This document shows positions 2,615-30,931 of a DNA stretch of 32,858 nucleotides, piece by piece (position 1 is the first letter of the stretch; each line of letters starts with the position of its first letter). The notes under the pieces are model-generated. The model was given only the letters and a program-made list of their open reading frames with translations. It made no database searches and was not told where the DNA came from. The stretch is from contig JAGVCC010000258.1 of the NCBI GenBank assembly GCA_020059395.1, positions 1-32,858 of the forward strand, given 5' to 3'. The translations under genes were made by a program, and so were the position numbers. This stretch comes from Chitinophagales bacterium. Its GTDB lineage: Bacteria > Bacteroidota > Bacteroidia > Chitinophagales > Chitinophagaceae.

Positions 2615-3863
2615 ATGAAGCATTCTGGCCTGTTACTGTTATTTATACTTATTGCAGCACCGGCTTTTTGCCAATTGCATACCGACAGCAGTGAAAAAAA
2701 ACCAGCAGATTCTGCAGTGTTGCGTATAAAAAATTTAAACCCTTATTTTACTGTACATGTAGACTCTATGCTGCGTTACCCGCTGGAAATTAACAAAGAT
2801 GTTTCGCAATATTACTGGTTTATAAAAAACTCACCGGTAGGCGTTAAAATTAATAAAGACAATGGCCTGCTTACTACAAAAGTTGACAAATCGTTTTTTT
2901 TTGTCGGGCAAACTAAAATACGATTATGAATATAAAGTTGCCTTAAGTGTTCAAAATTTAAATAATCCGGCAGATAAGGTTGATACTTTTTTTACCCTTC
3001 TTTTTTACAGCACAGAAATAATTACTTCCCGTATTAAACCAACAGTGACCAATAAAGTATTTATTGATGAAGGTGATACTTTGAGCTTTAAACTGCAATG
3101 CGACAATGGCAGTTTCCCCATTGAAGAAATAAGGTACGTAAGTAACTATGCCATAAAATCTGCCACCGCTGTGGGCCGCTGTGGCGATGATTTTACATGG
3201 AGCGCTCCTTACGATTTTATTAAATCTACTGATAAAGAAAAACAAAAAACCATACAGCTGTATTTTATAGGTGCTACAAAGTTTCATGTTACCGACACTG
3301 CCCTTATTGAAATAACTGTTAAAGAAAATATTAATTACCCGCAGCAAACCTTAGAATTTGAAACCCTGTATAATGAAGTAACAAAATACATCACACAGCT
3401 AAAAAGCAGTTTTAGAATTGTAGATAAGAAAATAAAAAAAGTAAAAAGCACCCGTACAACATTCGATTTAGCTTCTGCATCCACAGCATTGGGCGGCACC
3501 ATTTTTTCATCGTTACCAGAAACCAAGCAGCAGGCAACTGGTAAAATACTTCCCAGCGTTGGCGTTGCTTTAGTACCCGTTAAAGAAGCTACGGCGCCTA
3601 ACAGCAGTTATGAGCAAAACACTGCCCCATTAATACGCAGCAGTATTAAGCGTTTGGAGTATTTGTTAACTCAAACACGCCTTGCAGGCGACAGGGACCC
3701 CGAAATACTTACCAAAACAAATAAAATAAGGGAAGAGCTGAAGCAAACACAAATTCAGCTTATTGATATTCCTTTGGCAGAAGAAGCGCCTGATGAAAAA
3801 GAGCTGGATAAATACTTTAATAACCCTAAGGTTAATAAGAAATACCAGATGAAGAAGAAGTAA
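2615..3863 (+). CDS. Exported protein of unknown function, frame broken at a T9 run
   Basis: Two overlapping reading frames form one gene. The 5' part starts at ATG 2615 with a clear signal peptide (MKHSGLLLLFILIAAPAFC) and runs to a stop at 2929. The 3' part continues in another frame to 3863. The join is the run of nine T at 2894-2902. With eight T the protein reads on through KSFFLSGKLKYDYEYKV to give about 415 residues. The N-terminal half looks beta-rich. The C-terminal third is helical and charged, with a small Ala/Gly/Ser-rich segment (FDLASASTALGGTIFSSL) before it. I do not recognise the family. As written, the gene makes only a short exported peptide, unless slippage on T9 restores the frame. 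Alternatives are a sequencing error, a decayed gene, or phase variation. A TTG start at 2597 is possible but adds only six unconvincing residues. Copies of the 33-bp repeat lie on both sides. Confidence 0.7.
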
Positions 3864-4052: not shown

Positions 4053-5297
4053 ATGAAAAAAATTATTTCAGGATTAATTTTATTGGCAATAATTGGCATC
4101 AGTTTTTATGCCTGCAAATCAAGCACTCCTAAATGTGAAGTGTGTGCCAGTACAAGCAATGTAAAAACCCAAGTTAAGTTTGAAAAAGAGTTCGGTATTG
4201 ACTCTGTATTAACTAATTTATGGTATGCTAATGATGTAAAGGAAAATTACGACTATGCAGATATAGCTGAACAAAAAGATTTTGATTTTGAAAAATTTAA
4301 ATTACACGTCGAAAAAAATCCGATGTTTAAAATTGAAGGAAATCCACAAATTATCGGATATGTATTGTACTTGAACAAGCAATTGCATTTAGACCCTATA
4401 GTAAAACCTTATAGTTTGCTTGCAATTGGAATTTATTCCTATCATGACAAAATCTTACAGCATAATTTCTTCAAAAAAAACGACTCTGCAAATACTTTTA
4501 TTGAGGTTTCCGAATTAAAAGCTTCAGTTAGCGGAATACAAATAAATGCTATTCATGCATTAATGAAAAAAGTTGTACACCCTAAAGATGGCTCTACTTC
4601 ATTTTTAATATCTAATGCTAAAGAAATTTCTGTATTAGGAAAAATAACTAAAACTTCTGATGATTTAATTCGTATAATAAATAATTATGAAAAAAGTATT
4701 TCAGAATTATCCCGAACGTCGAATCAAGAATTAAGAAATTTTGCTGATGAGGGGGAAGGGGGAGCCTTTTGCCTAACCCCCTGTGCTCCTACATCATCAT
4801 CTTGTTGGCAAAGCACTACCAGCCAATCATATGTTTGCCGTGGAAATATTATATGCCCTATGAGAGTAAGCTTCAATACTGTTGATGCAACTGACTTTTG
4901 GGCTAATACAGATTCTTTAGAAAAAACTGTTAAACCAACTACCGCCTATCAATTTCGAGACTCAATACTTTCTAAAAATGCTATGGGTCAAAAATATATT
5001 AGTGACTATTATTTTTTAGGCAGCACTTTTTCTAATTCCTACTCTTTTACGAATAGTCTAAAAATTTTAAGGATTATGCCTACTGTTTATTCAATAGTAG
5101 ACAAAATAAATTCTACAAACCAAACTCAAAATACATATGATACAGAAACAAGAGATAAAATCGTTAGCCTGATTAATTATTTTAAAACTTTAACTGATGA
5201 CGCAATTGCAATTGCCAAAATGAATGATATAATTGCTGATGTAAATTATTATTGCAATAAGCAAGTATCAAATTTAAAGAGTGCATTAACTAATTAA
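4053..5297 (+). CDS. Predicted lipoprotein with a cysteine cluster, unknown function
   Basis: A 414-residue protein with a lipoprotein-type signal peptide (MKKIISGLILLAIIGISFYAC), lipidation expected at Cys21, so it is placed in the outer or inner membrane lipid layer. A CxxC pair sits at 28/31. Residues 225-237 are acidic and Gly-rich, followed by five cysteines at 240, 244, 251, 262 and 268, which could form disulphides outside the cytoplasm. The rest is mostly helical and polar, with many Asn, Lys and Ile residues. Its codons are more AT-rich than those of the flanking purA and clp genes, which suggests an accessory gene. I recognise no family. It is monocistronic: its own promoter with a C12 tract lies upstream and a strong bidirectional terminator follows. 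The ATG at 4053 is the natural start for the signal peptide. Confidence 0.75.
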   Translation: MKKIISGLILLAIIGISFYACKSSTPKCEVCASTSNVKTQVKFEKEFGIDSVLTNLWYANDVKENYDYADIAEQKDFDFEKFKLHVEKNPMFKIEGNPQIIGYVLYLNKQLHLDPIVKPYSLLAIGIYSYHDKILQHNFFKKNDSANTFIEVSELKASVSGIQINAIHALMKKVVHPKDGSTSFLISNAKEISVLGKITKTSDDLIRIINNYEKSISELSRTSNQELRNFADEGEGGAFCLTPCAPTSSSCWQSTTSQSYVCRGNIICPMRVSFNTVDATDFWANTDSLEKTVKPTTAYQFRDSILSKNAMGQKYISDYYFLGSTFSNSYSFTNSLKILRIMPTVYSIVDKINSTNQTQNTYDTETRDKIVSLINYFKTLTDDAIAIAKMNDIIADVNYYCNKQVSNLKSALTN

Positions 5298-5309
5298 GAT
5301 ATTACCTAA

Positions 5310-5345
5310 AAACTAAAGGCCGTAAAATTTTACGGCCTTTAGTTT
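5310..5345. terminator. Bidirectional terminator between lipoprotein gene and clpX
   Basis: A perfect 36-bp palindrome: AAACTAAAGGCCGTAAAA followed directly by its reverse complement. T-rich flanks lie on both sides. It sits between two convergent genes and can serve both. Confidence 0.85.
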
Positions 5346-22267: not shown

Positions 22268-22554
22268 AAGTGTTTAGAGTTAAAGTAGATTTTTGGCTTC
22301 TAGTTTAAATTTCGGCACTGTTAATTTCGCAACCCCTAATTCGTCGTTTTAAATCATTTATACTTATCGTGAATTACTTAGAACAGTATACATCCGAAGC
22401 CGTTGTATAGCCTGAAAAAAATTACTGTTGTAAACTAATCATCGATGAAAAAAAAGAGTTAAAAATGATTGTGTAGCATCAGCTATATAATAACCAGAAA
22501 GCTTAAAAACATAAGTAGAATAACACAATTATTTATGTAATATTAAATTTACAA
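22268..22554. other. Non-coding gap between two convergent genes
   Basis: About 290 bp between the terminators of two convergent genes. It is AT-rich, with no open frame of useful length, no promoter-like box with a plausible target, and no repeat matching other parts of the window. Nothing recognised. Confidence 0.5.
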
Positions 22555-22584
22555 AAAAGCCGCCAGTAAATACCGGCGGCTTTT
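22555..22584 (-). terminator. Terminator of the TonB receptor/lipoprotein operon
   Basis: Stem AAAAGCCGCC pairs with GGCGGCTTTT around a 10-base loop. On the minus strand it is followed by further T residues. It lies 23 bp after the lipoprotein stop. Confidence 0.85.
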
Positions 22585-22607
22585 CTTTATTCAATGATAA
22601 TATCCAA

Positions 22608-24071
22608 TCAATTAAACCTCGTCCATCCTTTCCACCAGCTTGCCAGTGCACCAGAGGGTGCAACAGCGCCTATAAAATTAGTTGGGGTAAAGAAAGGATC
22701 TGCAACTTTTGCATGAGCAAAACTTGCCCTTGGTGTTATAGTACCGGAAATAGTACCCACTATACTTGAAGCGTTACCAAAAGGAGTTGGGTCTGGTGCT
22801 TCATAATTAAAAGGCTGAATAAACAGATTGACTGGCAATGTTCCATTTAATATGGTGTTTGCCTGTGAGGCTCCTTTAAAATAAGTTACTAAATCTGCTG
22901 TTGTATACGCAGAACCTGATGGTGCAGAATATTTAATACTGTCAGTGTTACCGCCTAAAAATATATTGGCAAGTACCACACCTGTACCAACATTAGCGCC
23001 TGTAGGTGTACCAGTTGTACCATCCACATCAATACCTAGGGGCCAGCCAACAATTACAGAATTGAATAAAGACATTTCTGAGTTTCTTCTGATGTGTGCA
23101 CCAGCCCTGTACAATGAGCTGCCTACATTTGAAGCAGTAGCCCTTGGGCCAATAGCCGTCATGTTACTAAAAACTACCGAAGTTTTTGGTGTTACAGTGG
23201 TGCCGCCGGCATTGTTGTCGCTTTCAAAAGCTTCAGATCTTGAAGCATCTGCAATAACCGAATCTCTTATTGATAATCCAAACTGCACTTTACCGCTGTA
23301 GCCATTGTCCGTATCAAAATCATCATCCTGTGTTTTGTAAGCTACCAGATATTTACAGTTTACTGTACCACCAAACCATTCAAAAGCATCGTCTTTAGCA
23401 AGGTAAGTTTGTACATTTTCTATAACAGTTTTGTTGCCAACAGCAGCCATAGTTAAGCTGTTAATTTCTTTATCTGGCTGAAAGGCGTAACCTGCATATT
23501 CAATTCTTACATAGCGTAAAACACCTGAGCTGTCATTAGCAACAGCAGCAGGCACTGCAGCATCACCGCTGCCGGCAAGGCCATCGCCATTTGAATTATT
23601 TACACCACCTTCTACTTCAAATAAACCTGCAGTTCCGTTAAAGCTGGTGTTAATGGGTGCTTTACCACAAATAATTAAACCACCCCAGTCGCCACTTTGT
23701 GGGTTAGGGCTGGCAGATGTAAACACAATTGGATCAAGTGCTGTACCATTTGCTACAATTTTTGCACCACGGGTTATAATAAGTGCAGCAACATCGCTGC
23801 CACTAAAAGAACCTTTAATGGTGGTACCAGCCTCTATAGTTAATGTTTTATTATTAGCTATATAAACTAAGCCTTTTAATATGTAGGTGTTTGCTTTTTT
23901 AAATATAGTGTCTGATGTAATGCGTCCTTCTACAGTTATTGTTTGGCCTGTACTGCCGCCACCACCGGTGTTGATGGTAACTATCTGAATTTGCCCGTCT
24001 GTTTCAATCTTTCTGCAAGCAGTATTGCTTAAAGCAGCAATTGCAAACAGCATTAAAATGTACTTTTTCAT
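22608..24071 (-). CDS. Predicted beta-helix lipoprotein, partner of the TonB receptor
   Basis: A 487-residue protein with a lipoprotein-type signal (MKKYILMLFAIAALSNTAC, Cys19, loose lipobox). The mature protein starts with a Gly-rich linker (NTGGGGSTGQT). It continues with strand-turn units typical of a right-handed parallel beta-helix (TLTIEAGTTIKGSF, ALIITRGAKIVANGT, VIENVQTYLAKDDAFEWFGG). Acid-rich loops such as QDDDFDTDNGYSG might bind metal. It begins 30 bp after the TonB receptor stop, so the two form an operon. Comparable receptor-lipoprotein pairs in Bacteroidota serve as capture and transport units. The neighbouring porin and PiT genes suggest a phosphorus-containing ligand, which is inference. 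It does not resemble SusD. The exact function is unknown. Confidence 0.78.
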   Translation of the reverse strand: MKKYILMLFAIAALSNTACRKIETDGQIQIVTINTGGGGSTGQTITVEGRITSDTIFKKANTYILKGLVYIANNKTLTIEAGTTIKGSFSGSDVAALIITRGAKIVANGTALDPIVFTSASPNPQSGDWGGLIICGKAPINTSFNGTAGLFEVEGGVNNSNGDGLAGSGDAAVPAAVANDSSGVLRYVRIEYAGYAFQPDKEINSLTMAAVGNKTVIENVQTYLAKDDAFEWFGGTVNCKYLVAYKTQDDDFDTDNGYSGKVQFGLSIRDSVIADASRSEAFESDNNAGGTTVTPKTSVVFSNMTAIGPRATASNVGSSLYRAGAHIRRNSEMSLFNSVIVGWPLGIDVDGTTGTPTGANVGTGVVLANIFLGGNTDSIKYSAPSGSAYTTADLVTYFKGASQANTILNGTLPVNLFIQPFNYEAPDPTPFGNASSIVGTISGTITPRASFAHAKVADPFFTPTNFIGAVAPSGALASWWKGWTRFN

Positions 24072-24101
24072 GTTTGTTTTTATGTTTTAAATAGTTATAA
24101 A

Positions 24102-26876
24102 TTATAGTGAGTAGTTAAAGGTTATATTAACAGTGGTGCCAAACTGCCTTGTAAAACGGTAGGCATCAATATTTTTTTGAAACCCATCTGAGTTGTTGGC
24201 ATTTTGATAGAAATACTGCACCCTGTTAATGATGTCGGAAATATTCATTTTAATTTCACCTTTACCTTTTACAATTTTCTTAGCTAACTGAAAATCTAAT
24301 AATGGACGGGGTGCTTCATATACATCCGGAGAAGATGCGCCTGCTGCCTTATCACCTACTAAAAATATTCTTTCGCCAATTAAATTAAATAATATGGTGG
24401 CGTTTAAACCATGCTTAGGAGCATCATACAACAGCCCAAGGTTTATAAGATAATTTGACTGGCCCTGCAAGCTTCTGTCTAAATTAAACCTGGCATCTGT
24501 AACCCTGCTTTTTATGATAGCTACATTGGACTGAAACATAAAGTTTTCCATTTGGGGAGCAATAAAATCAAGCTTTTTTCTAAACTCAAGCTCTAAGCCG
24601 GCAGAGTATGCTTCTTCTGCATTTTGAAAATTGAAAGTGCTGGCACCGCCTATACCTTCGTTAAATAACTGTTCAATAGGGTCTTTAAAATATTTATAAA
24701 ATACACCTGCGCTTAACACCTCTCCTGGTTTTTTGTAAAGCTCATATCTAAGATCCAGGTTGGTAACCTTTGTACGTTTTAAAGCAGGGTTACCATTTAC
24801 TGAGGCATTTAATTCAAAGTCGTAAAGATTTAGTGAACTTAATTCTCTAAGCTCTGGCCTTATTACTGTTTGCGATGCTGAAAAACGAAGATTAGTTGTT
24901 GTATTAATTTTGTAAGTAGCATTTAAGCCGGGTAAAAAGTCGGTAACTTTTGAGTAAGTATGGCGGGGATCCCATTTTTTTACACTGCCTACTAACTGGT
25001 CAAAATGTTCTACACGTAAGCCCCAAACCAACCGCAGTTTTTCAAACAGTTCATTGTCAAACTGCAGGTAGCCTGCGTTTAAAATGGTGTTAGCCAAATA
25101 CCGGAAAGTACTTCCTTTAATGGCATCAAAAGCAACTTTATTATCGGTACCTGTGCCAAAATTTTCTGGTGCAAATATTTTATCGGCAGGCAATAGTTTT
25201 AAAGCATCATTATCAACAGGCAGATAGTTTGCAAAAAGTTTTGCATCAAACAAACGGTCTCTTACCTGAAACATGTAACCGCCTTTAATGGTTTGTTTGT
25301 TTTTAAAAGTGTAGGTTAAATCTCCGCCGGTTGTATAAATATAATCGTTTAAAATTTGGTAAATACGGCTGCCGCTTGCCTGAGAAAGTGTGTTTGAAAT
25401 AATTGCCCTGTAAGGATTTGAACTGCCTTTGTCCTTTGAATATTGCAGCCTTCTCTGGTCAGGTGAGTAGCCATCTAAAATAGTAAAAGCACCATTCCAG
25501 TTTAATTTTAAACTTTTAGTAAGGCTGTGCTGTCCGGTAAGTTGTGTGGTGAAAAAAGTGTTTTGTTTAAACGAGTATTCGTAAGCTCTTATATCTTCTG
25601 TACGGGTATCATCAATGCCATTTCTTAATATAGTGCTGTTAGCAGTATTGGTGTTTATAATACTCTTTAAAGATATTTTATTAAGGTTGTTTAACTGCAG
25701 CGATAAACTTGCCAGTGCACCCACCGATGTGTTTTGCAAATACCTTGTATCATTAAAATCTATATCGGTATTTTTAAAAGTTCTTCCGTTTTCAAAATTG
25801 TTATGTCTGTTTACAATATCCTGTATGCTGTTATTTTTTCGGTAAGTAATGCCAAAAATACCACCCAGTGTTTTACCAAACACTTTTCCTTTAAAACCAC
25901 CGTTAACTTCAAAAGCCGCATTTAAGGGTGCAGTAATTTGTGTGGGCGCCCATGCATTACGCATACTTTTACCCATGGCAGTTTTATTGGCAAAACTTGC
26001 TGTATCAAAACCACTCTTTGTAGTATAGGCAGCAGGCAAATTTCTTGTGCCGTCGTCAATACCCAACCAGTCTGTTTTACCGCCTTTATCTTCATAAAAA
26101 TTTTTTCCAATTGTTTGTGTATTAAAGCCAGAGCCAATCTGTACGTTAAAAAAGTTTTTTGCAGGTATATCTTTTGTATTTACCTGTATTAGACCACCAG
26201 CCCACTCGCCTGGATACTCTGGCACAAATGCTTTATTAACAACAATATTATCCACCATGGTGCTGGGTATAATATCAAATGAAAAAGTTTTTCTGTCTGG
26301 CTCGGTACTGGTAAGTAAAATACCATTCAGCATAGCCTGATTGTATCTGTCTGCCAAGCCACGTACCACCAAAAATTTACCTTCCTGTATGCTGGTGCCG
26401 GGTAAACGTTTTAACACCTCACCTGTATTACGGTCGGGGCTTCTTCTGATTGCTTCGGCAGAAATAACCGACGCCACCGTGTTTGTAGTTTTTTGAAAAG
26501 TAAGTAATGCGTTTGTACTTTCACGGCGGGCCGTAGTAGAGCGCACTACAACAGTTTCACTTGTTTTTGCTTTGGGTAATAATGCAATATCTAAATGAGC
26601 AATACCATCACTGCCCGTTTCTACTTCTGTAATTTCTTTACTATCGAAATTGGTTGAAGTAATTGTAACAGTGTATTTTTTACCTGTTTCAATTACCAAA
26701 CTAAAGCGGCCTTCTAAATCTGTAGCAACACCTTTACCCGTTTCTTTTATAATTACCGATACACCTGAAACTGGAGTGCCGGTTTTTGAATCAGTAATTT
26801 TTCCTTCTATTTTTCCCTTTTGGGCAAACAGACTAAAACTGCTTAAGCAAACCAATACGGATAACAATAATCTCAT
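24102..26876 (-). CDS. TonB-dependent outer-membrane receptor with CarboxypepD_reg-like domain
   Basis: A 924-residue outer-membrane active transporter. It has a signal peptide (MRLLLSVLVCLSSFSLFAQ) and then a CarboxypepD_reg-like beta-sandwich (about 20-105, GKITDSKTGTPVSGVSVIIK). The plug domain spans about 125-245, with LKRLPGTSI and LVVRGLADRYNQAMLNG, and the 22-stranded barrel ends in a terminal aromatic strand (TVNITFNYSL). It lacks the SusC signature context and has no SusD partner; its partner is the beta-helix lipoprotein downstream. ATG 26876 is chosen over the upstream ATG at 26918, because that one would read through the predicted control region and place the signal peptide internally. 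It is divergent from the porin/PiT genes, and phased repeats lie just upstream. A role in uptake of phosphate or organophosphate is inferred from context only. Confidence 0.9.
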   Translation of the reverse strand: MRLLLSVLVCLSSFSLFAQKGKIEGKITDSKTGTPVSGVSVIIKETGKGVATDLEGRFSLVIETGKKYTVTITSTNFDSKEITEVETGSDGIAHLDIALLPKAKTSETVVVRSTTARRESTNALLTFQKTTNTVASVISAEAIRRSPDRNTGEVLKRLPGTSIQEGKFLVVRGLADRYNQAMLNGILLTSTEPDRKTFSFDIIPSTMVDNIVVNKAFVPEYPGEWAGGLIQVNTKDIPAKNFFNVQIGSGFNTQTIGKNFYEDKGGKTDWLGIDDGTRNLPAAYTTKSGFDTASFANKTAMGKSMRNAWAPTQITAPLNAAFEVNGGFKGKVFGKTLGGIFGITYRKNNSIQDIVNRHNNFENGRTFKNTDIDFNDTRYLQNTSVGALASLSLQLNNLNKISLKSIINTNTANSTILRNGIDDTRTEDIRAYEYSFKQNTFFTTQLTGQHSLTKSLKLNWNGAFTILDGYSPDQRRLQYSKDKGSSNPYRAIISNTLSQASGSRIYQILNDYIYTTGGDLTYTFKNKQTIKGGYMFQVRDRLFDAKLFANYLPVDNDALKLLPADKIFAPENFGTGTDNKVAFDAIKGSTFRYLANTILNAGYLQFDNELFEKLRLVWGLRVEHFDQLVGSVKKWDPRHTYSKVTDFLPGLNATYKINTTTNLRFSASQTVIRPELRELSSLNLYDFELNASVNGNPALKRTKVTNLDLRYELYKKPGEVLSAGVFYKYFKDPIEQLFNEGIGGASTFNFQNAEEAYSAGLELEFRKKLDFIAPQMENFMFQSNVAIIKSRVTDARFNLDRSLQGQSNYLINLGLLYDAPKHGLNATILFNLIGERIFLVGDKAAGASSPDVYEAPRPLLDFQLAKKIVKGKGEIKMNISDIINRVQYFYQNANNSDGFQKNIDAYRFTRQFGTTVNITFNYSL

Positions 26877-26892
26877 GCCGTTAAATTTTATG

Positions 26893-26900
26893 CAAAGAGA
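26893..26900 (-). promoter_or_regulatory. -7-like box of the TonB receptor operon (TCTCTTTG)
   Basis: Seven of eight positions match TAnnTTTG on the minus strand, 16 bp before the receptor ATG. The phased half-site array ends 10 bp upstream, where an activator such as PhoB would replace the -33 contact. Confidence 0.45.
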
Positions 26901-26910
26901 TTGTTCCAAT

Positions 26911-26949
26911 GTTAACATGCCGTTACTGCAATGTTAACTTAATATGAAC
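26911..26949. promoter_or_regulatory. Phased half-site array A (Pho-box-like, 11-bp period)
   Basis: Four six-base half-sites start exactly 11 bp apart: GTTAAC (26911), GTTACT (26922), GTTAAC (26933) and ATGAAC (26944). An 11-bp direct-repeat period is the hallmark of PhoB/OmpR-family operators. The array stands immediately upstream of the -7-like box of the TonB receptor operon, the geometry of PhoB-activated promoters. Assignment to PhoB is inferred from spacing and from the phosphate genes around it. Confidence 0.5.
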
Positions 26950-26968
26950 AGTGTATATTGTTTGATTT

Positions 26969-27018
26969 GGTAACAATTACATCAAGCTATGGTAACATTA
27001 AGTTTACGTTTTGATAAC
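26969..27018. promoter_or_regulatory. Phased half-site array B (Pho-box-like, 11-bp period)
   Basis: Five consecutive 11-bp steps carry GGTAAC (26969), a weak CATCAA (26980), GGTAAC (26991), GTTTAC (27002) and GATAAC (27013). Four of five fit a G-x-T-A-A-C-like pattern. The array lies between the divergent TonB receptor and porin genes. A shorter pair downstream (CTTAAC 27122, GGTAAT 27133) has the same 11-bp step. An activator site for the phosphate genes is inferred. Confidence 0.5.
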
Positions 27019-27086
27019 ACAGTTGCCTCAATTTTACAAACTAAGTAATACGGACCTTTCCAGGCCTGTAATGTCTTTAAATTGCA

Positions 27087-27117
27087 AGCTCCGCCTTAAC
27101 TGGCGGGGCTATTTTTG
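27087..27117 (+). promoter_or_regulatory. Hairpin and -7 box (TATTTTTG) before the porin gene
   Basis: A 9-bp stem (AGCTCCGCC with GGCGGGGCT) is followed directly by TATTTTTG (27110-27117), an exact TAnnTTTG match. The TTG at 27082 would leave a 25-bp spacer, slightly long. The hairpin plus T run could instead act as a terminator or attenuator for transcripts started upstream. Which role applies cannot be told from sequence. Confidence 0.4.
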
Positions 27118-27201
27118 CATGCTTAACAATTTGGTAATATTGAATTGCAGTAAGTGTGTTTTTAAATGTTTTTTTTTGCAGCGCAATTTAAAAGACATTA
27201 T

Positions 27202-28404
27202 ATGAAACAAATAGCATTAACTGCGCTTGCAGTTACTACTGTTATTATTTTACATGCGCAGGCTCAGCCAGCCACAGCTGTAAAAGAAACTAAACGCTGG
27301 TATGAAACCTTTTCAATACGTGGTTACGTACAGGTACGCTACAACCGCCTGCTGGAAACAAATCCAAAACTTAAATGTGAGCAATGCGACCGCTCTGTTG
27401 GAGAAAACGGTGGTTTTATTATACGCCGGGGACGTATTATTCTTAGCGGCAACCTTACCAATAATATATACTTCTATATTCAGCCAGACTTTGGCAGCAG
27501 CACAGGCACCACACAAAATATTTTTCAGGTACGTGATGCATATATGGACATAAGCTTTGATAAAAAAAATGAGTTTCGCTTAAGAGTGGGGCAAAGCAAA
27601 GTGCCTTTTGGTTTTGAAAATATGCAAAGCAGCCAAAACCGTTTACCGCTCGACAGGAATGACGGACTGAATAGTGCTGTTTCTAATGAAAGAGATTTAG
27701 GGGCATTTTTTTACTGGGCGCCTAAAGACAGGCGTGAAATGTTTACTGCATTTGTAAGGGATAATTTTAAAGGCAGTGGCGATTATGGAGTTGCTGCATT
27801 TGGTTTATATAACGGACAAACAGCTAACCGGGCAGAACAAAACAAAAATCTGCACGCAGTTGCCCGTTTTAGTTATCCATTTAAAATTGGCAGCCAAATA
27901 ATAGAGCCTGGGGTACAGGCATATGCAGGCAAGTATGTATTACCGGCTGATTTAAGAAGTGCTGGTGTAAAAGCAGCCAATAATTTTGAGTTTGATGATA
28001 AACGGGTTGCAGCATCTTTCATTGTTTATCCTAAACCTTTGGGCATACAGGCTGAATACAACTGGGGTAAAGGCCCTCAATATAATCCTGTAAAAGATTC
28101 TATTGAGGTGCGTAATCTTGATGGAGGATATATAACAGTATCTTACAGAGCTGCTTTAAAAAACGGTATGTGTCTTTTTCCTTTTACCCGGGTGCAGCAA
28201 TACAATGGGGGTAAAAAACACGAACTGGATGCCCGTAAGTACAATGTAAAGGAAATGGAAACAGGTTTGGAGTGGCAGTTAAATAAAAATTTTGAATTTA
28301 CTGTATCTTACGTGCTGTCTCAGCGCCGATTTGAGGATAATAAAGCAAAAAATAACTTTCAAAAAGGCAATTATATGAGAATGCAGGCACAACTGAATTT
28401 TTAA
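27202..28404 (+). CDS. Phosphate-selective porin O/P family protein
   Basis: Outer-membrane beta-barrel porin of the OprO/OprP type, 400 residues. A signal peptide (MKQIALTALAVTTVIILHAQAQ) is followed by amphipathic strands. Characteristic segments are SIRGYVQVRYNR, GFIIRRGRIILSGNL, FYIQPDFGSS and FRLRVGQSKVPFGFENMQSSQNR, with a final strand ending MRMQAQLNF. A Cys pair (KCEQC) near 52-55 may form a disulphide in an early loop. The family conducts phosphate or pyrophosphate passively across the outer membrane. The ATG at 27202 is chosen over an upstream ATG at 27166, which would place residues before the signal peptide. It is followed by DUF47 and PiT genes on the same strand, making a complete phosphate import route. 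Confidence 0.9.
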   Translation: MKQIALTALAVTTVIILHAQAQPATAVKETKRWYETFSIRGYVQVRYNRLLETNPKLKCEQCDRSVGENGGFIIRRGRIILSGNLTNNIYFYIQPDFGSSTGTTQNIFQVRDAYMDISFDKKNEFRLRVGQSKVPFGFENMQSSQNRLPLDRNDGLNSAVSNERDLGAFFYWAPKDRREMFTAFVRDNFKGSGDYGVAAFGLYNGQTANRAEQNKNLHAVARFSYPFKIGSQIIEPGVQAYAGKYVLPADLRSAGVKAANNFEFDDKRVAASFIVYPKPLGIQAEYNWGKGPQYNPVKDSIEVRNLDGGYITVSYRAALKNGMCLFPFTRVQQYNGGKKHELDARKYNVKEMETGLEWQLNKNFEFTVSYVLSQRRFEDNKAKNNFQKGNYMRMQAQLNF

Positions 28405-28457
28405 TGTTAATAAATTATTACCAATAAATAATTACACAGGCTTCTTAAATCACTTTA

Positions 28458-28465
28458 TACATTTG
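28458..28465 (+). promoter_or_regulatory. -7 box before the DUF47 gene (TACATTTG)
   Basis: Exact TAnnTTTG match 14 bp before the DUF47 ATG. No TTG stands at -33 spacing. It suggests that DUF47-PiT can be transcribed separately from the porin gene. Confidence 0.5.
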
Positions 28466-28479
28466 CAAAAATTAATTTT

Positions 28480-29130
28480 ATGGCAGGATTAAACTCAATT
28501 TTAAAAATATTTTTACCTAAGGACAGGGTGTTTTTTCAACTGTTTGAAAACGTGGCAGATGAACTGGTGAAAATGGGTGAAAAATTAAAAGAGATAGTTA
28601 GTGAATCAGACTTTGATAAAAGGGCAGCACTGATAAAGGAAATTGAAGACATGGAGCATGTAAATGATGATTATACCCATCAGATATTTACAGAGCTTGG
28701 TAAAAACTTCATTACGCCTTTTGACAGAGAAGACATACACTACCTTGCCACGGCGCTGGATGATATAGCTGACTATATCTATGCATCAGCCAAAAAAATA
28801 AATTTTTACCACGTAAATCCTAACGATACTGGCATTCAAAAAATGGCCGATGTTATTGCACAGGGTTGTGTGGCTGTAAGTAAAGCCGTAAAAGAACTGC
28901 GTAACATGAAAAACATGCGGCAGATTACAGATGCGCTGGTACAAATAAACAGTATAGAAAACCAGGGTGATGATATTTTTGATATGAGCATTGAAAAACT
29001 GTTTGCAGAAGAAAACGATGCCAAAGAAGTAATTAAGAAAAGAGAAATTTATCAGGTAATGGAAATTGTTACTGATAAATGTGAAGATGCTGCGAATGTA
29101 ATTGAAAGCATAATTGTAAAGTACGCTTAG
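28480..29130 (+). CDS. DUF47 family protein, PiT accessory/regulator
   Basis: A 216-residue all-helical, PhoU-like cytoplasmic protein of the DUF47 (PhoU_div) family. Characteristic segments are RVFFQLFENVADELVKMGEKL, the conserved EDMEHVNDDYTHQIFTELGKNFITPFDREDIHYLATALDDIADYI region, and a C-terminal KKREIYQVMEIVTDKCEDAANVIESI. The Glu/Asp-rich helices correspond to metal-binding positions in PhoU-like folds. Family members are encoded directly before Pit phosphate transporters and are thought to modulate them. The gene lies 91 bp before the PiT gene, as expected. Start ATG is unambiguous. Confidence 0.93.
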   Translation: MAGLNSILKIFLPKDRVFFQLFENVADELVKMGEKLKEIVSESDFDKRAALIKEIEDMEHVNDDYTHQIFTELGKNFITPFDREDIHYLATALDDIADYIYASAKKINFYHVNPNDTGIQKMADVIAQGCVAVSKAVKELRNMKNMRQITDALVQINSIENQGDDIFDMSIEKLFAEENDAKEVIKKREIYQVMEIVTDKCEDAANVIESIIVKYA

Positions 29131-29221
29131 TTGTTCATGGTTCATTGGTAATGGTAATGGAGTACAGCGTATCGTGTACTTACTATGAACTATTTACTAT
29201 CAACTATCAACCAAAATATTT
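29131..29221. repeat. Word-repetitive spacer between DUF47 and PiT genes
   Basis: This gap is built from short related words: GGTTCATTGG, GGTAATGGTAATGG, ACTATGAACTAT, TTACTATCAACTATCAACC. The left and right parts are imperfect inverted repeats around GTACAGCGTATCGTGTAC. I believe such spacers recur between genes in this bacterial group, but no second copy exists here to prove it. Confidence 0.4.
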
Positions 29222-30931
29222 ATGACTCTTGTAATAGTAATTGTAGCCCTTGCGCTTATATTCGATTATATCAATGGCTTCCATGATGCAGCCAATTCTA
29301 TAGCTACAGTGGTATCCACTAAGGTACTTACTCCTTTTCAGGCGGTGGTTTGGGCAGCAATTTTTAATGTGGCTGCTTATTTTATTTTTAGCGATCATGC
29401 AGTTGCCAATACCATAAGCAAAACCGTTAATAAAGAATTTATTACCCTTCCCGTAATTCTTTCGGGCCTTATTGCAGCTATTTTCTGGAATCTGCTTACC
29501 TGGTGGTATGGCATTCCCTCTTCTTCTTCGCATACATTAATTGGCGGTTTTGCCGGTGCGGCAATTGCACACGCTATATCAATAAAAGGCGTAGGAATAA
29601 GCTGGGGTAAAATTGTAGAAGGCAGTATAATTTTAAAAACTGTGCTGTTCATCTTTTTAGCACCGCTTATTGGTATGGGTATATCCATCTTTATTACCAT
29701 TGTAACCATAATGCGTAACGTATGGGCCCGTATTGGCATTATAGCAGTGGCCACTTTTCTTACCGTTATACTCTTCGACAGGTTTGAAGAAAGCAAGATG
29801 GATGAAAACCTGCAAAAGTTTTTAAAGTACGATAAATATAAAACGGAAGTTACCACTGCAAACGCAAAACTAAAAGCTGACAAAAATAATGCAGCTGTTT
29901 TAATGGAGTACGAAACCGCCAAAGAAAAATTAGACAAAGCCACTCCCAACTATAAAAAATTAGCTGCCTTAGTAAATAATTTTGATAACCTGGGGGCTGC
30001 AAAAATAGCCGCTCAGGCTACAGAACAGGGGCTTTTAAAAGATATTGAAGCAAGCCGATTAAAGGATGATATACGCAATGCAAACGACTATTTAATTTTA
30101 GAGGCCGAAGCCACTGCAGATTCTTCAAAAAAAGCAGCATTTGCCGTTGCAAAAGTTGAAACAGAAAAATATAAAGAGCCGCTAAAAAAATATTTTAAAA
30201 AAGAAATTTTAATTGACAGTGCGCTTACCGCACTTAACAGCATTTACCCAATAAAAGAAGCCAACAGAAAAAAAATTAAGGATAAAATAGAAAAGTTTAA
30301 CATTGAAAAAGCGCTGGTAAAAGATATTGACAAAGCTGATAACAGCGGCATTGTATGGGGCATTATAGCATCTTCTTTATTATTCTGCCTGGTGTATTTG
30401 TATGTTGAAAAAATAAAAACACCAACCGCATATAAAGTTGCCACCATGTTTAAGCGCCTGCAGTTATTCAGTTCCGCAGCATTCAGCATTGGGCATGGCG
30501 GTAACGATGCACAAAAAGTAATGGGCATTATTGGTGCCGCACTTATAGCCAACGGCAATATTCAAAACTTTAGCGATTTACCGGCGTGGGTGCCCATAGC
30601 CTGTTATGTTGCTATTGGGCTGGGTACTATGAGTGGTGGCTGGAAAATTGTAAAAACAATGGGTACTAAAATTACCAAAGTAACCCCACTGGAAGGAGTT
30701 GCAGCTGAAACAGCCGGTGCCTTTACACTGTTTTTTACCGGGCAAATGGGAATCCCCGTATCCACTACACATACCATTACAGGCTCAATTATTGGGGTTG
30801 GGGCTACAAAACGTTTAAGTGCGGTACGCTGGGGTGTTACAGTAAATCTGCTGTGGGCATGGATACTAACTATACCAGTAAGTGGTTTGCTGGCAGCCCT
30901 TACTTACTATGTTGTTTCAATGTTCAGCTAA
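29222..30931 (+). CDS. PiT family inorganic phosphate transporter with large central insertion
   Basis: Inner-membrane inorganic phosphate symporter, 569 residues. Both halves of the inverted-repeat fold carry the PiT signature: GFHDAANSIATVVSTKVL at about 19-36 and GGNDAQKVMGIIGAAL at about 425. The conserved segments SSSHTLIGGFAGAAIAHA and GIPVSTTHTITGSIIGVGA follow the respective signatures. Between the halves, about residues 195-380 form a long charged, mostly helical soluble domain (EYETAKEKLDKATPNYKKL and similar). This makes the protein longer than the simple bacterial PitA, and coiled-coil pairing is likely. Start ATG 29222 gives MTLVIVIVALALIFDYINGFHD directly. It is the last gene of the porin-DUF47-PiT series and is closed by a strong terminator. 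Confidence 0.95.
   Translation: MTLVIVIVALALIFDYINGFHDAANSIATVVSTKVLTPFQAVVWAAIFNVAAYFIFSDHAVANTISKTVNKEFITLPVILSGLIAAIFWNLLTWWYGIPSSSSHTLIGGFAGAAIAHAISIKGVGISWGKIVEGSIILKTVLFIFLAPLIGMGISIFITIVTIMRNVWARIGIIAVATFLTVILFDRFEESKMDENLQKFLKYDKYKTEVTTANAKLKADKNNAAVLMEYETAKEKLDKATPNYKKLAALVNNFDNLGAAKIAAQATEQGLLKDIEASRLKDDIRNANDYLILEAEATADSSKKAAFAVAKVETEKYKEPLKKYFKKEILIDSALTALNSIYPIKEANRKKIKDKIEKFNIEKALVKDIDKADNSGIVWGIIASSLLFCLVYLYVEKIKTPTAYKVATMFKRLQLFSSAAFSIGHGGNDAQKVMGIIGAALIANGNIQNFSDLPAWVPIACYVAIGLGTMSGGWKIVKTMGTKITKVTPLEGVAAETAGAFTLFFTGQMGIPVSTTHTITGSIIGVGATKRLSAVRWGVTVNLLWAWILTIPVSGLLAALTYYVVSMFS

Follow-up and report, generated by a model that had tools for sequence, protein, structure and literature searches.

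Between two divergent groups of phosphate-related genes, the window (by which we mean the whole analysed stretch of 32,858 nucleotides) carries two series of short half-sites recurring at steps of 11 bp, and the question is which regulator reads them and which genes they control. On the minus strand they are flanked by an operon (22608-26876) comprising a TonB-dependent receptor (24102-26876, recognized by Pfam) and a lipoprotein (22608-24071), and on the plus strand by a phosphate-selective porin O/P (27202-28404, PF07396), followed by a PhoU-like DUF47 protein and a PiT phosphate transporter (28480-30931, PF01865 and PF01384). The original prediction regarded both series as probable Pho boxes of the Bacteroidota.

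Re-reading of the window sequence showed the coordinates given earlier and the exact 11-bp steps to be correct. Array A (26906-26949, minus strand) faces the TonB operon and consists of four Pho half-sites, with the hexamers TTCATA, TTAACA, GTAACG and TTAACA (26910-26948). Array B (26969-27023, plus strand) consists of five, three of them good, with the hexamers GTAACA, ATCAAG, GTAACA, TTTACG and ATAACA (26970-27019). Several of these hexamers are weak, as might be expected of a chance periodicity in AT-rich intergenic DNA: two of the nine are poor, the ATCAAG at 26981 being a weak one, and the site at 26944 fits solely as a minus-strand TTCATA. However, a weight matrix of 11 positions, built from the TonB promoters of 18 other genomes, returns A (score 23.3) and B (16.4) as the two best three-unit arrays of the window, with an expected number per window of 0 at the score of A (none in 150) and 0.03 at that of B, as estimated from 150 second-order Markov windows. 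Steps of 8, 9, 10, 12, 13 and 14 bp, tried with the same matrix, gave no scoring array, and 11 bp alone did. Besides, the arrays are conserved in Chitinophagaceae and beyond, and we count an origin by chance as refuted, its probability being practically nil.

This conservation was analyzed with the aid of DUF47 orthologues, which were found in 150 genomes of the family; 40 upstream regions were taken, and 37 relatives were counted for phasing. Pairs of TTAACA-like hexamers on the same strand occur 64 times at a distance of 11 bp versus about 4 times at other spacings; 22, 33 and 44 bp also stand out as peaks. The E. coli hexamer TGTCAT gives no 11-bp peak in the same regions of the relatives, which bears out the earlier remark that the half-site is unlike the enterobacterial CTGTCAT. 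Named members of the Flavobacteriia, Sphingobacteriia and Cytophagia likewise have the 11-bp peak in front of the porin. The array unit of Chitinophagaceae can be written as GKTAAYATTSC, and promoters of the TonB receptor usually hold four to six such units upstream of the -7 box. In all 19 of these promoters that have a recognizable TTTGC (18 from relatives and one from the window) the last hexamer lies exactly 13 nt from this -7 box, the TTTG of which is found in the window at 26893-26896 on the minus strand; the distance from array A to the -7-like box of the TonB operon, previously given as 10 bp, corresponds to this fixed spacing. The same 13-nt phase recurs among the relatives in promoters of a predicted small RNA described below. 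The phasing in the window and in its relatives thus supports the view that the geometry is that of a Pho box. The plain array pattern with one mismatch allowed gives matches only moderately above the reversed control in ten genomes, and it is therefore weak unless the matrix and the -7 anchor are used. Plus-strand arrays of the type '..TTCATA..' at three loci (L051, L057 and L062) turned out, upon inspection of the sequence, to be artefacts of MKKLL start codons.

It had been proposed to ask whether such arrays precede other phosphate genes, and among the highest-scoring sites of ten genomes they do. In G129, a genome of the same genus, arrays are located upstream of a TonB receptor and its lipoprotein partner, of genes for a PAP2 phosphatase and an alkaline-phosphatase-like enzyme, of an OmpR-type regulator gene accompanied by that of its kinase, and of a metallophosphatase of the PlcP-like, lipid-remodelling type that adjoins a glycosyltransferase. 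Arrays before genes for an OmpR/PhoB-type regulator, the metallophosphatase, the alkaline-phosphatase-like and PAP2 enzymes and TonB receptors were found in G129, G081, G089 and G067. The control of the TonB receptor/lipoprotein pair by array A, as originally predicted, is likewise supported by the presence of the array at the fixed 13-nt spacing in relatives. Elsewhere, phased arrays lie beside homologous small genes at about 5722 of L079 and at 12861 of L084 (MQWVKVQSNTPAETFELW.. and MKWVSVNNGTAQESFELW.., respectively), which are candidate new members of the Pho regulon, and high-scoring 11-bp arrays lie about 160 bp upstream of a gene for a DnaB-like helicase in two genera (L087, about 7091; L088, about 5822).

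All ten genomes tested encode a PhoB-type orthologue. One of them is the window's own, in which the gene (G000:C352:3-632) extends past the contig edge and encodes a protein 69% identical to the PhoB-type protein of G163. In G163 itself, phoB-phoR directly adjoins the series lipoprotein, TonB receptor, arrays A and B, porin, DUF47 and PiT. The regulator on the phosphate island of G129 (L085) was rejected as PhoB, the universal orthologue being of the type found in L238; located at 2682-3419, it is a second OmpR-type protein with its own kinase and an array upstream, separate from the PhoB orthologue encoded on the same contig. It is very likely, judging from phasing, spacing and gene context together, that the arrays are PhoB boxes. 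The alternative, that another OmpR-family protein reads them and the regulon answers to a signal other than phosphate, appears very improbable, even though the PhoB-type protein, for which TIGR02154 is the best family, scores below the curated cut-off (237 vs 296 bits) and a Riemerella PhoP with a TTTAACA motif has been linked with virulence and redox, not with phosphate (PMC9603813). In its favor one may also count that PhoU (PF01895) was detected in none of ten genomes of the family (G000, G129, G035, G103, G087, G105, G062, G081, G089 and G067), while control genomes were positive; in these ten, phosphate signalling must run without PhoU, perhaps via the PhoU-like DUF47. Against it speak the phoBR genes that adjoin the locus in relatives, the nature of the targets (phosphatases, the phosphate porin and transporter, and the metallophosphatase of the lipid-remodelling type), and the phosphate-dependent induction of a similar TonB receptor/lipoprotein pair in Flavobacterium johnsoniae (PMC8115612).

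If the arrays are PhoB boxes, the role of array B needs to be considered separately. It had been assigned to the control of porin, DUF47 and PiT, within what was taken to be the sole intergenic region able to serve both sets of genes; neither assignment held, since array B faces a short terminated stretch, and porin and DUF47 have -7 elements and boxes of their own, which had been missed. The strand and phase of array B lead to a degenerate -7-like box, TTTAC (27033-27037, plus strand), 13 nt from the last half-site, followed by about 75 nt without an ORF and a strong Rho-independent terminator (27088-27116, plus strand) with an 8-bp stem and a T run. We designate the stretch 27043-27116 (plus strand) as a predicted small RNA; its 5' end is predicted from the position of the -7 box, and its promoter from consensus and conservation. 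The degeneracy of the -7 box means that this promoter may be weak in the window; in relatives the corresponding box is mostly TTTGC or TTTGT, and TTCA(T/C) in three.

Downstream of the terminator, box C (27123-27139, plus strand), with the structure TTAACA-n5-GTAATA, lies 35 nt upstream of the porin -7 box (TTTG at 27175-27178, plus strand), and it is nearly invariant among 12 relatives, at 35-36 nt. Box D (28405-28422, minus strand), with the half-sites GTAATA and TTAACA, lies 39 nt upstream of the -7 box of DUF47 (TTTG at 28462-28465), and it is nearly invariant in about 30 relatives, where this distance is 37-40 nt. The presence of both boxes suggests that PhoB also touches the transcription of porin and DUF47-PiT, and owing to box C the porin might in the end be expressed in a pulse or be finely tuned and not shut off. 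Box D, TGTTAAGAAATTATTACC, exceeds the other Pho arrays in conservation and is directed away from the gene; it could act in repression or have a dual use.

The same order (array, 13 nt, -7 box, 75-125 nt, terminator, box C, -7 box, porin) is found in relatives from several genera. It may be argued that the arrays are Pho boxes, but that B is a distal operator of the porin operon, the porin being the next plus-strand gene downstream, and that the hairpin is an attenuator or a leftover terminator without a separate RNA; the distance between the antisense segment described below and the porin leader, nearly constant at 106-112 nt, would fit such an arrangement as well. However, beyond the terminator the porin has a conserved box C and a -7 box to itself, and in relatives array B is followed at 13 nt by a separate -7-like box. 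For these reasons, and in view of one genome in which segment and porin are far apart (G369, see below), we consider a distal operator unlikely.

Aligned 3' parts of 12 sequences of the predicted RNA share the segment ATTATCTTTTAATTGCA. All cells of their terminator stem (100%) are paired, and three of the pairs show changes on both sides. A covariance model (R1) made from these 12 sequences, one of which is the window, scores the window RNA at 61 bits (27063-27117) and finds 10 of 399 genomes of the family at 47 bits or more, with the next match at 39.6 bits; eight of the 10 had contributed training sequences, and G302 and G369 had not. The same 10 genomes, and no others among the 399, encode a porin that shares 68% identity or more with that of the window. 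Matches scoring less than about 40 bits have the appearance of generic terminators and were rejected as small RNAs. One such sequence is the terminator of the lipoprotein gene of the window (22551-22605, minus strand; 14.5 bits), which has no antisense segment; possibly it is a relic of an arrangement like that in G369, or merely a terminator. No Rfam family matches the predicted RNA at the gathering score, and no phosphate-related small RNA of Bacteroidota was found in the open-access literature; it is, as far as we could search, a previously undescribed candidate for a family of phosphate-starvation RNAs. A second array of the Pho type in the window's own genome (L079 on G000:C66, about 5153-5310) is followed by a TTTAC-type -7 box, about 95 nt without a clear ORF, a strong terminator and a small lipoprotein gene; the stretch before the terminator partly matches the start-codon region of this gene.

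What would such an RNA act upon? An unpaired segment of it, AATGTCTTTAAATTGCA (27070-27086, plus strand), is complementary to the leader of the porin mRNA, GCAATTTAAAAGACATTA (27183-27200, plus strand), which stands directly 5' of the ATG at 27202; across the aligned sequences the leader complementary to the shared segment, TGCAATTAAAAGATAAT, begins just past the -7 box and stops shortly before the start codon. In the window the predicted duplex of the segment with 27183-27200 has an energy of -20.8 kcal/mol and needs one bulged base in the mRNA; the mean for cognate pairs is -21.1 kcal/mol versus -6.8 kcal/mol for shuffled ones. The antisense element is carried by 14 species, across which 220 of 238 cells pair, in an alignment from which one bulged A was taken out by hand both in the window and in L147. 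Six two-sided compensatory changes, of which the window and G369 have three each, are spread over five positions. Permutation of the leaders among species gave P = 0.0024 for pairing and P = 0.0061 for two-sided changes, values that are optimistic because the aligned species share ancestry. Among the exact 13-nt matches listed and examined in eight genomes, the porin leader alone follows a TTTGC-type box; the others lack this context, and several resemble coding sequence. That array B drives an RNA which pairs with the porin leader thus seems quite likely to us, to judge from complementarity and covariation.

In G369, which has a reduced genome, the element is unlinked from the porin. The porin on contig C2 retains box C and has no RNA upstream, and the antisense segment with its terminator lies directly 3' of the lipoprotein stop codon, at the end of an array-TonB receptor-lipoprotein operon (array score 30.1) that is convergent with phoRB on contig C3. 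The segment (GGCTTTTAATTGCA) and the porin leader (TGCAATTAAAAGCC) have remained complementary, with three compensated pairs, and their changes match between the unlinked loci, which argues against a cis-acting leader, a DNA-level inverted repeat and a distal porin operator alike.

We consider the likely explanation of the arrays, their spacing and regulon context, the conserved terminator, the complementarity with its covariation, and the co-occurrence of RNA and porin to be a set of PhoB-operated arrays together with a PhoB-induced, trans-acting small RNA that silences the phosphate porin in starvation; from these features we infer PhoB binding, induction by phosphate limitation, the existence of the RNA and repression. 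Upon starvation, phosphorylated PhoB would fill the successive 11-bp units in head-to-tail orientation, up to 13 nt from TTTGC, and would switch on two divergent promoters together, that of the TonB receptor/lipoprotein operon by array A and that of the small RNA of about 75 nt by array B. The RNA would then pair with the porin mRNA along its 5' leader, which is very short, approximately from nucleotide 1 up to the start codon, and most likely block translation, while uptake would shift to the TonB system. PhoB would additionally act on porin and DUF47-PiT through the two-half-site boxes C and D, which are placed further upstream of their promoters.

Given that the RNA is real, repression of the porin is the reading we favor, with fair confidence. 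A real, leader-pairing RNA might instead activate the porin or stabilize its mRNA by protecting the 5' end, near which the pairing is predicted to start, and box C suggests that the porin may also be wanted under phosphate starvation. This seems rather unlikely, as most of the leader is taken up by the pairing, which in several species extends to the start codon, a leader of 20-25 nt is unlikely to contain an inhibitory structure that has to be opened, and OprP, encoded in the phoBR cluster of F. johnsoniae, is not induced by low phosphate (PMC8115612). With repression as the preferred outcome, PhoB would drive a TonB uptake operon in one direction and, in the other, an RNA dedicated to silencing the low-affinity phosphate porin, and in the reduced genome a porin antisense at the 3' end of the PhoB-driven TonB-lipoprotein mRNA would have replaced the RNA gene, an evolutionary change from a free-standing small RNA to one borne by a 3'-UTR. 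We hold this scenario to be reasonably probable.

A Pho-box definition for Bacteroidota that is anchored to the promoter (a unit of 11 bp, GKTAAYATTSC, the final hexamer lying 13 nt from TTTGC) could make Pho regulons readable from sequence in a phylum important for phosphorus turnover in soil and water. The RNA and the porin leader, on the other hand, are well supported as a candidate pair of small RNA and dedicated target under nutrient control. Few such pairs are known in Bacteroidota, and nature has provided compensatory changes in this one.

Among known systems, the phoBR cluster of F. johnsoniae resembles this locus in gene content: a TonB receptor and a lipoprotein, which increase about 2^8 to 2^10-fold upon phosphate depletion, are encoded beside phoBR, porin O/P, a metallophosphatase and a glycosyltransferase (PMC8115612). 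No operator consensus for Bacteroidota Pho boxes was found in the open-access literature; the study of the F. johnsoniae Pho regulon gives no operator sequence (PMC8115612), and none was found in the paper on the phosphate-responsive PhoB of Bacteroides fragilis (PMC3547664). From the same phylum, the two-component response regulator PhoP of Riemerella anatipestifer has a DAP-seq motif with the core TTTAACA and targets tied to virulence, and in the accessible part of the publication it is not presented as an 11-bp phased phosphate operator (PMC9603813). The E. coli PhoB binds tandem 11-bp direct-repeat units head-to-tail (PMC4415409), and the two systems share such repeats beside the promoter and a PhoB-type regulator with phoR. 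They differ in the half-site (KTAAYA here, CTGTCAT in E. coli), in the length of the arrays, which are longer here, in the promoter, here a Bacteroidota TAnnTTTG at a fixed 13 nt, and in PhoU, which was not found in the 10 genomes. As to the RNA, MicF and MicC of E. coli are regulator-controlled small RNAs with a terminator that pair with the 5' end of porin mRNAs; the predicted RNA differs in belonging to Bacteroidota, in its putative Pho control, in having no match in Rfam, in apparently having one dedicated target, and in the position of its gene beside that target. The PhoP box of Bacillus subtilis and the SphR box of cyanobacteria have 11-bp steps and TTAAC-type half-sites (TTAACA and CTTAACCT, respectively). 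They belong to other phyla and work with other sigma factors, while the promoters here have a -7 element of the TTTGC type; step and half-site are alike, and the predicted Pho boxes of the window resemble those of Bacillus and cyanobacteria more closely than that of E. coli.
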